Positions 47,529-51,617 of a stretch of DNA of 64,000 bases are shown here, piece after piece; the first letter of the stretch is position 1, and every line of letters begins with the position of its first letter. Under the pieces are notes generated by a model that ran no database searches, was not told the DNA's origin, and saw only the letters and a program-made list of their open reading frames with translations. The stretch is from Pseudobdellovibrionaceae bacterium (GTDB lineage Bacteria > Bdellovibrionota > Bdellovibrionia > Bdellovibrionales > Bdellovibrionaceae). Both the position numbers and the translations under genes were made by a program. The stretch covers positions 744,001-808,000 of the forward strand of contig JAHBUV010000001.1 of assembly GCA_019637915.1 (NCBI GenBank). Direction: 5' to 3'.

Positions 47529-48398
47529 TCAGTGGGAGCTCTCCTGGACGATTTCTTCCGCCTGCAGATTCTCCCCTTGGCGATAGCGGTCCACGAGGTT
47601 CATGTCCGTCGTCGGAAAAGAGAACAGCAGGGCGTGAACGCCGGTCTGATCATCCTCCTGGGTCACGGCGATGTAGTGCATGTCCTTCACCTCGTGATCG
47701 GGGAATTCTTTGATGAAACAAACCAGCACGTGGCCGTCGAGATCGTTCTTGCGCCAGATCTCGTCGGCGGCCTCGATGGTTTCCTCGCGCAGATCGCCGT
47801 ACTTGGGGAAATCGCTTTCCGGCACGTCCTTCTCGGAACGCAGCTTCACCATGGACAGGTAAAGGCCGATGGCCAGGGGATCCCCCTCCACCAGCGCGTC
47901 CCCGTCGATGGCGGCGCCCTGCACGCGCTCGTAACGGCGGTCATAAACCAATTCACCGCGTTGAAAGTTCGCGACCATTTCCGCGTCGCGCGTGGGAAAA
48001 TGACTCAGGACGAAGGTCGGCTCCTCGTCGGTTTCCGACAGGTACGCGACGGCGATGTACTGGAAGCCCTCGCATTCGCGGACGAAAATATGCACGGGGA
48101 AATCCGGGAAGCTTTTTTCATCGCGCCACACCTCATCCGGGTCATCCAGGCATTCTTCCAGGTGATTTTCCAGACTGAGCTGCTCCTCGTCGGAGTAGTC
48201 GTCCTCGGCGCGCAGGGATTGGTATTCGTTTTCCAGGCGGTCGATGGACTCCTGGAAATAGGCCGACAATTCGTCCTCGGATTCGAAGATCAATCCCGCG
48301 GATTCGTCGATGACGATGAGCTCGGCGTCGCGATCCGCCGAAGACTTGGTTTTTTTCGCTCGGGATTTGGATTTAGCCATGGATTTATTTTCAATCAT
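47529..48398 (-). CDS. Internally duplicated acidic protein, unknown function
   Basis: About 289 residues. A lysine-rich N-terminus (KSKSRAKKTKSS) precedes an acidic helical region, then two related units. Each has a DE-V/I-WR motif, a YIAV strand and an F-x-FPT-x-D segment ending in a GE pair: PDEVWRDEKSFPDF to SHFPTRDAEMVANFQRGE, and ADEIWRKNDLDGH to SFPTTDMNLVDRYRQGE. The pattern recalls the barnase/EndoU/RelE-fold PBECR domains, but that is only an impression. The start could be 48398 or 48380; no good ribosome site is present at either. Confidence 0.6.
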   Translation of the reverse strand: MIENKSMAKSKSRAKKTKSSADRDAELIVIDESAGLIFESEDELSAYFQESIDRLENEYQSLRAEDDYSDEEQLSLENHLEECLDDPDEVWRDEKSFPDFPVHIFVRECEGFQYIAVAYLSETDEEPTFVLSHFPTRDAEMVANFQRGELVYDRRYERVQGAAIDGDALVEGDPLAIGLYLSMVKLRSEKDVPESDFPKYGDLREETIEAADEIWRKNDLDGHVLVCFIKEFPDHEVKDMHYIAVTQEDDQTGVHALLFSFPTTDMNLVDRYRQGENLQAEEIVQESSH

Positions 48399-48466
48399 GG
48401 AGGCCCGTCCCACAACTGCGAATCATCAACCGTGACGAACTCCGTCAAAGGGCGCCGGGTTTGCTC

Positions 48467-48850
48467 ATGAAACTTGAAAAGGGAGGCGAAATCCCTCAGC
48501 ATCGAAAGAGTGAGAGAGAGCGCAAGGAGGCGGCTTTGTCGATCGAGGAAAAAAATTTGGAACGAATGGAATCGTTGCTCAGTCACTCGGCCCTGGGAGT
48601 GCATGTTCTCTTCGAAAACCGGTCCATCGCGGAAGCCCTCCGCGAAGTCAAAGACGACAAGGACTTTTACGACTTCGACAAAATGAAGAAGGTGCAGGAC
48701 GTGATGACGGAACTCATCGCGAAAAAGACCTACTTCGAGAAAGTGGCTTACCTGCGCTCGCTCGAGAGCGAAGCCTTCCAGATGGTCGTGCGGGCTTATT
48801 TCCACATCGTGGAGAACACCGTCCGCGCCACCCACGAATACCAGCACTGA
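48467..48850 (+). CDS. Small helical protein, unknown function
   Basis: A 127-residue, charged, all-helical cytoplasmic protein with segments such as IEEKNLERMESLLSHSA and YFEKVAYLRSLESEAFQ. No family recognised. The ATG at 48467 lies divergent from the duplicated acidic protein with about 70 bases between the starts. Codon use matches the host, supporting a real gene. Confidence 0.6.
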   Translation: MKLEKGGEIPQHRKSERERKEAALSIEEKNLERMESLLSHSALGVHVLFENRSIAEALREVKDDKDFYDFDKMKKVQDVMTELIAKKTYFEKVAYLRSLESEAFQMVVRAYFHIVENTVRATHEYQH

Positions 48851-48921: not shown

Positions 48922-49221
48922 ATGAGGAATCGCATCTTCAGCCTGCTCGTCTTTGGTCTGGTGGGGGCTCTGACGCCCGCCGCCCGGGCCGAGTACCGCG
49001 TTTTCGTGCTGAAGATCTCCAAGGCCCCGCCCGCCCCGGGCCAGCCGGCGGAGGAGCGTTTCATCGAAAGCAACCTCGATCCCTGGCAGTACGTGGGCTT
49101 TTATCCCATCCACCCCACCGAGACCGTCACCTACACCGACACCTGGATGTGCCGCGAGCGCACCGGCGGACGGCCCTTTTGTCCAAATCCGCGGGACCCG
49201 GCCTCGGTCCCCGCCCCCTGA
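48922..49221 (+). CDS. Small exported protein, unknown function
   Basis: A 99-residue protein with signal peptide MRNRIFSLLVFGLVGALTPAARA. The mature part has the pattern YRVFVLKI, DPWQYVGFYPIHPTETVTYTDTWMCRERT and two cysteines (MCRER and FCPNP), ending in a proline-rich tail. Not a family I can name. No Shine-Dalgarno is evident; a perfect hairpin lies just upstream of the start. It precedes the coiled-coil gene by 52 bases. Confidence 0.65.
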   Translation: MRNRIFSLLVFGLVGALTPAARAEYRVFVLKISKAPPAPGQPAEERFIESNLDPWQYVGFYPIHPTETVTYTDTWMCRERTGGRPFCPNPRDPASVPAP

Positions 49222-49273: not shown

Positions 49274-50551
49274 ATGGCCGATGTTTCATCGCTGCGTCGT
49301 CAGCAACAGGATGATCTGAGCGATCTGCAGGCGGAGTACAACCGCAAGCGCAAGCGCCTGATCAAAGAGCAGGAGTCCGAGCTGAACGACATGCGCGCCA
49401 CGCACAAGGAGCGCCAGGAGGCCGTCAACGAACAGGGCGAGGCCGCCGTCAACCACATCCGCAAAAAGACCGACGACGACATGAACCGCGCCCAGGACCA
49501 GCGCCAGGCCATCCAGAAGCGCTCCCAGGACCAGATCGGAAAAATCGAGGAAGTTTACCGCAAGAAAGTCGCCGGCACCCTGCAGGGCCGCGAAGAGGAC
49601 ATCAAAGAGACCCGCGAAAAAACCCGCGCCAAGACCGAGCAGATCCGCCAGGACAGCGAGGAGAAGATCGCCAGGCTCCGCGAGGACACCACCGACCGCT
49701 ACATCCGCGCCAAGGAGCGCGGCGACGGCGAAGTCCGCCGCACCGAGCGCCAGCACGAGGACAAACTCACCACCCTGCGCCGGCAGGGCGAGATCGCCCA
49801 GAAGCGCGAGCAGGAGCGCGGTTCCCACCAGATGGAAAAACTGCGAAGCGAGAACGAGTCCAACTACGCCCGCACCCACGCCCTGGGCGAACACGCCGTC
49901 GCCGAGGACAAGGCCTCCCACGAGAGCAAACGCCAGAAGCTGACCCAGGAGTACGAGCTGCGCTTTCAGAAGGACCAGAAGGAATGGGCCGACCGCGGCG
50001 AGCGCCTGGACCGGGAGTACTCCGAAAAACTCGGCCGCAACAAGGAGTCCTACGAGAGCCAGCTCAAGGAGCAAAAAAAACGCTTTGACTCCATTTACAG
50101 CAAGAACCAGGAGTCCAACGAGCGCTCCCTGCAGTTGCAGCGCCTGAACGCCGCCAAGGAACTCAACGAACTGAAGAAGGACTTCCTCACCGACGCCAAC
50201 AAGTACTCCGGCAAAGAGACGGACGCCTTCTACAAGGTTCAGGACCGCGGCAGCCGCATGGTGGAAACACCCAATTACTACGTCATCGACGCCTACGCCC
50301 CGGGGCACGAAAAGGACGGCGTGCGCGTGACCGTGGAAAAGAACCGCGCCACCGTGCAGGGGCAACGCTCTTTCCAGGACAAATTCGAGAACGGGGACGG
50401 CAAGAAAGTCTCCACCAGCTCCTACCAGACTTTCCGCGAGGAGTTCCCCTTCGACAAACCGGTGATCACCGAGGGGATGAGCCGGAAACGCGAGGGGGAC
50501 TGGGTCCGCATCGTCGTTCCGAAGCTGTTGGGTTTTTCGAAAAAAGTTTAA
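49274..50551 (+). CDS. Long coiled coil fused to an alpha-crystallin-like (Hsp20) domain
   Basis: A 425-residue cytoplasmic protein. Residues 1 to about 320 are a nearly unbroken, highly charged coiled coil rich in Glu, Lys, Arg and Gln. Residues about 329-418 look like an alpha-crystallin domain: ETPNYYVIDAYAPGHEKDGV, the VRVTVEKNRATVQGQR strand pair, FREEFPFDKPVIT and the final REGDWVRIVVPK, matching the order of strands in small heat-shock proteins (YVIxAxxPG, VxVxxNxxxVxG, FxRxFxLP, GxLxIxIPK). A ribosome site GGGAGAG precedes the ATG. The fusion suggests a chaperone tethered to or organised by a filament-like rod. The domain call is from pattern only. Confidence 0.7.
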   Translation: MADVSSLRRQQQDDLSDLQAEYNRKRKRLIKEQESELNDMRATHKERQEAVNEQGEAAVNHIRKKTDDDMNRAQDQRQAIQKRSQDQIGKIEEVYRKKVAGTLQGREEDIKETREKTRAKTEQIRQDSEEKIARLREDTTDRYIRAKERGDGEVRRTERQHEDKLTTLRRQGEIAQKREQERGSHQMEKLRSENESNYARTHALGEHAVAEDKASHESKRQKLTQEYELRFQKDQKEWADRGERLDREYSEKLGRNKESYESQLKEQKKRFDSIYSKNQESNERSLQLQRLNAAKELNELKKDFLTDANKYSGKETDAFYKVQDRGSRMVETPNYYVIDAYAPGHEKDGVRVTVEKNRATVQGQRSFQDKFENGDGKKVSTSSYQTFREEFPFDKPVITEGMSRKREGDWVRIVVPKLLGFSKKV

Positions 50552-50574: not shown

Positions 50575-50805
50575 TCAGGCCTTCAAAAGGTAACGGGTCT
50601 CGCGCATCAGGAACGACAGACGCCCCTGCAGATCTTCCAGCATTTGCATGTTCGACTCGAGCACGGACATCACGTCCGTTTCAACGACGGGGAAATCGGC
50701 CATCTCGTGATAAGCCCTGTGAGTCATCGGCGCCGACACGGCCCAGTCCGCTTCGGACGCAGAAGATGTCGCGACAGTCAGGTTTTTCTGATCTGCGGTT
50801 CTCAT
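50575..50805 (-). CDS. Small hypothetical protein
   Basis: A 76-residue soluble protein with a helical C-terminal half (MSVLESNMQMLEDLQGRLSF). It is preceded by AAGGAG at good spacing, and so is likely translated. No family recognised. It is convergent with the coiled-coil gene; a GAGCTGA/TCAGCTC hairpin (50553-50576) lies between the two stops and could act as a weak shared terminator. Confidence 0.6.
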   Translation of the reverse strand: MRTADQKNLTVATSSASEADWAVSAPMTHRAYHEMADFPVVETDVMSVLESNMQMLEDLQGRLSFLMRETRYLLKA

Positions 50806-50941: not shown

Positions 50942-51580
50942 CTAATATTCGCATTGCAAGCTGCTCTTGTCCGTTTCCGCCAGTTCCGTGCGATCACTGT
51001 TGCTGGCGAGGTAAGTCGCCATGACGCTCGAATCCCGATCTTTGTGTTTCAAACCAAGCACATGGCCCAGTTCATGGAGAAGCAAAGCTTCAATATTCAC
51101 GCCACCGCCGCTGACGGTCGTGGCGTTGGGATCCTGCCAGTAAAATTGGAAAACCTCGCGCCCGCTGGAGGTCTTGGACGCGTTGACGCGGATGTCTGCT
51201 TCCTGGATCTGATCGCCGACCCAGTGGACCGAGGTCTTGGCTTGTTCCGACAATTTTTCCTGTTCCCAGTTGGAAGAGAAAGAGATCAGATTTTGACGAT
51301 CGCGGCCGGTGGGGGTGCCGGTGGCTTTGGTTTCATCGATGCGGAAGAGGGGCTTTCCGGAGGCCTTGTTCCAGCTGTTGGCGGCGGCCTTGATCGCCTC
51401 CACATATTGATCCGGCACGCTCTCATGGAGCTGCAGCGTGATCGGGATCTGGCCCTTCCAGGAGATGCGCTCCCCGTAGACGTTCTGAACGAAACCGCAA
51501 TCATCCTGCGCTTTGGGGGCACAAGCTTGCAGACTCAACAAAGCGGCACAACCTGCCAACAAACCGAACCATTTCCGCAT
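50942..51580 (-). CDS. Matrixin-type zinc metalloprotease lipoprotein
   Basis: A 212-residue protein with a lipobox-like LSLQAC (acylated cysteine at residue 20). The zinc motif HELGHVLGLKH (H169, H173, H179 with E170) is the metzincin HExxHxxGxxH, and the Met-turn is M187 in SSVMATY. These define a matrixin/M10-like protease. The upstream ATG at 51601 is not preferred, because AGGAGG lies between it and the ATG at 51580 at ideal spacing. Likely an envelope-anchored protease; with the subtilase and S41 protein it adds to the exported protease set. Confidence 0.85.
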   Translation of the reverse strand: MRKWFGLLAGCAALLSLQACAPKAQDDCGFVQNVYGERISWKGQIPITLQLHESVPDQYVEAIKAAANSWNKASGKPLFRIDETKATGTPTGRDRQNLISFSSNWEQEKLSEQAKTSVHWVGDQIQEADIRVNASKTSSGREVFQFYWQDPNATTVSGGGVNIEALLLHELGHVLGLKHKDRDSSVMATYLASNSDRTELAETDKSSLQCEY

Positions 51581-51617
51581 GCGCTTGGCCTCCTGACGCA
51601 TTGCAAAGCAACGCCGG

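Follow-up and report, generated by a model that had tools for sequence, protein, structure and literature searches.

The locus lies in a 64,000-nucleotide stretch of DNA (the window, meaning the whole stretch that was analysed), and its main gene occupies positions 49274-50551 of the forward strand. The open reading frame encodes 425 amino acids with an estimated mass of about 50 kDa, starts with ATG, and has a GGGAAGGGAG-type ribosome site just 5′ of the start. Orthologues are known: a congener has one with 52% identity along the entire protein, and those of other genera share 33-41%. Given this conservation, the ORF is a real gene. The protein combines a long coiled-coil rod with a C-terminal alpha-crystallin domain (ACD), and is called the rod-ACD protein here. 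It begins with a conserved head (residues 1-62, 49274-49459), in which the pattern LxDLQxEYxRKKKxL ... EAAxNHI forms the conservation peak of a 40-sequence alignment and A57, H61, and I62 are nearly invariant. The rod has two helices in the AF2 model. Helix 1 (residues 4-178, 49283-49807) is in 11/3 register and is the length-variable part of the coiled coil, and helix 2 (residues 186-311, 49829-50206) is constant in length. Gly183 (49820-49822) stands between them. A linker (residues 312-327, 50207-50254) carries a nearly invariant D-P-F-Y motif, which is DAFY in the window protein, and leads to the ACD, or Hsp20 domain (residues 328-417, 50255-50524), found by profile, AF2, and Foldseek. The protein ends with a short tail, LLGFSKKV (50525-50548). 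All these features are on the forward strand. An antisense ORF (49286-50365, reverse strand) is considered an artefact that mirrors the codon usage of the rod. The possibility that the gene is mobile or plasmid-borne was rejected, given that no plasmid match was found and the neighbourhood is conserved.

The survey of the fusion in related genomes, which the earlier note had recommended, found it phylum-wide. The gene is present in 58 of 60 relatives, in 123 of 144 genomes of the class Bdellovibrionia (the class being judged from named relatives, namely Bdellovibrionaceae, Bdellovibrio, and Pseudobdellovibrio), and in 235 of 369 genomes of the phylum Bdellovibrionota, including most of the lineages sampled. 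Sampled members f11, f12, and f20-f27 have the rod, a D-[P/Q/D/A]-F-Y linker, and the ACD in almost every case read out. The genomes without the gene are mainly small ones (1.2-2.4 Mb), and some of the absences are due to genome incompleteness. A wide scan beyond the relatives, made with two peptide patterns only, returned Bdellovibrionota and one contig labelled Streptomyces. This contig (L072, CALQIT020000134.1) belongs to a metagenome-assembled genome (MAG) under the name Streptomyces griseus, but its rod-ACD protein is clearly of the Bdellovibrionota kind; the contig is probably misbinned, or else the MAG is mislabelled. Single-sequence peptide patterns from the rod gave no match in genome contigs, because rod patterns are too variable. 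The rod-ACD protein can be regarded as an ancient family of Bdellovibrionota.

First, the rod has a regular but unusual register. Residues 1-312 are rich in E, R, K, and Q, 45% charged, and free of proline. The two AF2 helices were predicted from 22 sequences, for a single chain only (pTM 0.27), with low confidence at residues 171-190 and 312-330. Core residues recur with a period of 3.66-3.67, and the power at this period is 20 for the single sequence and 37 for the family average, against about 8 for the 99% level of shuffled sequences. At the heptad period of 3.5 the power is only about 0.1-2, and a heptad coiled coil was rejected by this spectrum. The earlier note had described an unbroken charged coiled coil and proposed an analysis of its register; the coiled coil and the long rod stand, by AF2 and periodicity, at residues 4-311, but the register is that of a hendecad and not a heptad. 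In an 11-residue frame, hydrophobic residues fall on positions 0, 3, 4, and 7 (spacing 3-1-3-4), the canonical a-d-e-h positions. Hydrophobic or aromatic residues occupy 64-73% of positions a and 50-58% of positions h, and the stripe is narrow with Y/F/L among its core layers. About 28 repeats follow each other continuously in the window rod, and their phase stays within 93-131 degrees across ~310 residues, Gly183 included, without any slip. The long forms, with a rod of ~400 residues, have the same period as the window rod, and a period of 3.655-3.665 is seen in these and in most of the distant members within the phylum. If straight, the rod would measure ~46 nm at 0.15 nm per residue. The rod is thus a slip-free hendecad (11/3) a-d-e-h coiled coil, which would oligomerise through the stripe.

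Gly183 occupies a core h position and is conserved in 34 of the 40 aligned sequences. AF2 breaks the helix in this region at low confidence, and the register runs on across the glycine. A hairpin at Gly183 is less likely, because the register is continuous and the lengths of the two arms differ between lineages; a two-register or antiparallel arrangement is possible. Glycines 150, 172, 183, and 205 (49721-49890) all lie at core h positions in the middle of the rod, two or one hendecads apart. The mid-rod h layer is otherwise small or polar, so that the central stretch may be thin or bendable.

Second, the length of the rod is conserved. All 40 full-length sequences of the alignment have 136 residues from G183 to F319, at identities down to ~24%. 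The distance from H61 to G183 is 122 residues in the window protein and 96, 103, 111, 119, 184, or 217 in others, which corresponds to indels upstream of G183 of -26, -19, -11, -3, +62, and +95 residues. All six sizes are within 0.18 of a whole 11/3 turn (mean 0.11), with p of about 0.007 against random sizes, a value that rests on six states only and on events that are not phylogenetically independent. Rods of 28 to 37 repeats are found in the family. From these comparisons, rod length seems to change almost only by whole helical turns, and since the 136 residues are constant and the indels are near whole turns, the length is considered to be under selection. In Pseudobdellovibrio and its relatives (L073-L083), most of the rod is lost; their proteins have 215-262 amino acids in total with a short stub left, and the basic KK tail has given way to acidic tails. 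As the ACD and the operon are kept, this group provides a natural rod-loss experiment.

Helices of the perilipin, apolipoprotein, and synuclein type, which lie on lipid surfaces, likewise have 11/3 periodicity. Thus the period of 3.66, together with weak apolipoprotein Pfam matches in 2 of 17 members and the basic C-terminal KK tails, would fit an amphipathic helix that lies on a lipid surface and recruits the ACD to membranes. However, the high charge and the narrow a-d-e-h stripe with its Y/F/L layers are against this, and the gapless length constancy and turn-quantised indels suit a register-locked bundle better, so we consider membrane binding improbable. Another class with 11-residue repeats and high charge is the group 3 LEA proteins. 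By analogy, the rod could be a mostly monomeric charged 11-mer helix that counters desiccation or crowding as an LEA-like or spacer-type protectant, while the ACD forms a head to which clients bind, and the presence of the protein in some free-living lineages would agree with such a function. The strong hydrophobic and aromatic core positions, the fixed length, and the lack of any LEA Pfam match speak against it, and we give this idea very little credence.

Third, the C-terminus is a true alpha-crystallin domain. The C-terminal domain of the window protein alone matches PF00011 with E=2e-4, above the gathering score; orthologues match it with E of 3e-14 and 1e-13, and 22 of 31 aligned relatives do so, at best with 2.9e-12. 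A PDB search with a profile of the C-terminal domain returned only small heat-shock proteins (sHsps) at E<=0.01. An AF2 model of residues 290-425 has a mean pLDDT of 77.7 (73-93 in 10-residue blocks across the domain), and all 29 of its Foldseek matches in PDB at E<=1e-3 are sHsp or alpha-crystallin folds, with target-normalised TM mostly of 0.46-0.72. Seven strands follow the rod helices in the AF2 model from 22 sequences. The best profile and fold matches are bacterial and plant sHsps (PF00011; HspA, 6ewn; Hsp18.1, 5ds2; Hsp16.9, 1gme), with which the domain shares fold, strand order, and the length of the loop of the bacterial/plant (beta-6) type. A chance or low-complexity match to Hsp20 was rejected on the evidence of profile, fold, and orthologues. 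The earlier note had read this part as an alpha-crystallin domain ending in IVVPK and had named structure prediction as the check; PF00011, the PDB profile search, Foldseek, and the orthologues bear out the domain, the predicted fold is the alpha-crystallin sandwich, and IVVPK turns out to be the last strand, beta-9, before the short tail ...FSKKV.

Thus, by its domain, the rod-ACD protein is a member of the Hsp20/ACD family. sHsps are usually of ~12-43 kDa, and their N-terminal region is short and mostly disordered. In contrast to the bacterial and plant members, the rod-ACD protein has a hendecad rod of ~310 residues instead of the short disordered arm, reaches 410-580 amino acids, and is without an IXI motif, which is absent from the tail of the window protein and from the alignment of relatives. 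The same genome encodes two canonical sHsps with SIQI and SIEV tails. In most long-rod f1 relatives, the tail ends with [hydrophobic]-[S/N]-K-K-[V/A/G/I]. The beta-9 motif is divergent in the window lineage, with GDW in place of GVL, whereas the canonical signature (YENGVLTVVIPK) is intact in distant members, and f11/f12 members have canonical nGVL. Apart from this family, a 198-amino-acid sHsp-like protein with an N-terminal membrane anchor (L053, G000:C1:2911321-2911527, reverse strand) lies ~1.3 kb from a canonical sHsp of the same genome.

The earlier note proposed a holdase positioned by a long rod, perhaps a chaperone bound to the cytoskeleton or to filaments. On this reading, unfolding clients would still bind to the ACD, and numerous ACDs would be set by the rod along a cellular structure or at some distance from it. 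The ACD is genuine, with conserved strands and the fold of sHsps; this and the full-length PF00011 matches with canonical nGVL in relatives are in line with the idea, and the beta-4/beta-8 groove would be free of the protein's own tail because IXI is absent. However, the disordered N-terminal arm, which is the usual client-binding part, is missing, and conservation is over rod length and operon, not over stress features. The two canonical IXI-type sHsps already in the genome, the absence of the IXI tail, and the absence of CIRCE near the operon argue somewhat against a generic heat-shock holdase but are not decisive. A sigma-70-like match or clear promoter was not found near the rod operon either, which again does not favour a holdase. 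We regard a positioned holdase as a serious but less likely alternative.

The gene does not stand alone on the chromosome. Two small genes precede it on the same strand. nbB (48461-48850, forward strand) encodes a cytosolic protein of ~115-129 amino acids ending with ...HIVENTVRATHEYQH; its exact start is uncertain, and the model match begins at 48533. nbA (48922-49221, forward strand) encodes 99 amino acids (~100 in relatives) with a signal peptide, followed by a secreted or periplasmic domain of ~77 residues with two invariant Cys. On the same strand and before the rod gene, nbA is found in 40 of 42 loci, with a median gap of 32 nt, and nbB in 34 of 42. The order nbB-nbA-rod holds in Bdellovibrionia and in f12; in f20-f27, nbB immediately precedes the rod gene, and ~1.5 kb of flanking sequence did not reveal nbA. 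Profile searches of Pfam, NCBIfam, and PDB assigned neither nbA nor nbB to a family; nbB has two marginal PHROG matches. Across the class, 111 genomes have both nbA and the rod gene, 12 the rod gene only, two nbA only, and 19 neither (Fisher 1e-13, without phylogenetic correction and with 11 unlisted negatives inferred by subtraction). By this co-occurrence, nbA and the rod gene appear to be gained or lost together across the class. The rod-ACD gene can be described as the last gene of an ancient operon that is conserved across the phylum. nbB has at least one other task, because several small genomes that lack the rod gene retain it.

Other genes flank the operon. Divergent from it is a gene (47529-48413, reverse strand) with a PBECR2-type domain (PF18810, E 8.5e-13, in two matched stretches), of a phage-associated nuclease-like family, which is next to the operon in relatives too. 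A lipoprotein-like matrixin (50942-51601, reverse strand; Peptidase_M10, E 3e-10) neighbours the rod gene in 38 of 42 loci. Between the rod gene and the matrixin lies nbC (50575-50805, reverse strand), which encodes a helical protein of 76 amino acids (YHEM..P ... MREVRYLMK), is transcribed towards the rod gene in 21 loci, and has no family match.

Head, about 28 hendecads, D-P-F-Y linker, and ACD, in a protein predicted to be cytoplasmic: this architecture is close to certain. What it does is a matter of interpretation. Several chains would pack together along the a-d-e-h stripe, giving a rod of fixed length with hardly any twist, and at its C-terminal end the ACDs would pair as dimers by way of the flexible 16-residue linker. 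Short disordered N-termini and IXI tails build the cages of ordinary sHsps; the rod and head may stand in for these parts, as the protein has lost the IXI tail whereas SIQI and SIEV are retained in the two canonical sHsps. Such an assembly would serve mainly as a scaffold or spacer of set length, which probably polymerises or is anchored and has the ACD as the part that joins or docks, and nbB, as well as nbA across the membrane where present, may serve the same process. That the main role is that of a scaffold is, in our view, an evenly balanced proposition, and we place about half of our belief in the best explanation as a whole, namely the rod-ACD architecture serving as a length-fixed scaffold or spacer with the ACD as its joining or docking module. 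The usual holdase duty is covered by the two canonical paralogues, which is in favour of the scaffold, as are the hendecad register without slip, the conserved rod length, the conserved operon, the strong co-occurrence of nbA with the rod gene, and the absence of the gene mainly from small genomes. On the other hand, canonical nGVL in f11/f12 would be in keeping with a functional chaperone domain, at least in an ancestor, and the link to nbB as a partner is not obligatory, as shown by the rod-less small genomes. A bolder extension is that Bdellovibrionota possess a cytoskeleton-like system of hendecad rods joined by sHsp domains, with nbB on one side of the inner membrane and nbA on the other as dedicated partners; we hold this only tentatively and think it rather unlikely. 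Rods of this kind would have been overlooked because coiled-coil surveys look for heptads.

Known rod proteins offer several comparisons. Lamins consist of a coiled-coil rod and an Ig-fold beta-sandwich tail. They resemble the rod-ACD protein in having a beta-sandwich after a rod of fixed length, but the likeness is an analogy in architecture and not homology, since lamins are eukaryotic, mostly heptad, and have the Ig fold instead of the ACD. NudC joins an N-terminal coiled coil to a CS/p23 domain. It shares with the rod-ACD protein the fusion of a coiled coil to an ACD-like beta-sandwich, but its coiled coil is short, its domain is a CS domain, and it is eukaryotic; sequence searches with the rod-ACD protein matched sHsps, not CS proteins. 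Crescentin, FilP, and Bdellovibrio Ccrp also have long cytoplasmic rods, but these are heptad rods without a beta-sandwich. The likeness to this coiled-coil-rich class is thus one of appearance, known here from sequence, and the rod does not have the long heptads that mark the class.

B. bacteriovorus HD100 has one orthologue of the rod-ACD gene (G036:1201510-1202793). Elsewhere in this genome, an ORF of 407 amino acids (G036:C1:2618740-2619963, reverse strand) begins with a sequence resembling an export signal and has a long heptad coiled coil free of stutters, with a period of 3.52 by the method used for the rod. It lies at the expected place of Bd2697, which we take to be the tag of Ccrp, and is likely the published Ccrp. 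Identity of the rod-ACD protein with Ccrp was rejected, the two being most likely different genes, as the orthologue and the heptad ORF are at different places. According to a title cited in PMC8938487, the ccrp gene prevents cell indentation, and the same paper states that B. bacteriovorus has no coiled-coil-rich protein besides Ccrp. This count probably left out the rod-ACD protein, as heptad-based predictors score hendecads poorly, which suggests that the single coiled-coil-rich protein of PMC8938487 reflects heptad-based prediction. The present family adds a large natural set of long hendecad rods.

sHsps are seen as compact cage-formers with floppy ends, and here the same domain sits on a stiff rod throughout the history of a phylum, with the length of the rod kept to the helical turn. 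This raises the question of what an sHsp domain does when it is not free to diffuse, which is testable in HD100, a genetically tractable predator. The orthologue is 22 kb from the Bd1244 primer site (primer from PMC3593177), and its tag would be about Bd1260-1270. In the literature, no paper naming the rod-ACD protein was found, nor one on Bd1259-1270 among Bdellovibrio papers. In HD100, an ORF with a LuxR-type HTH (L035:9255-9548, forward strand) runs antisense to the rod-ACD gene and overlaps its 3′ end.
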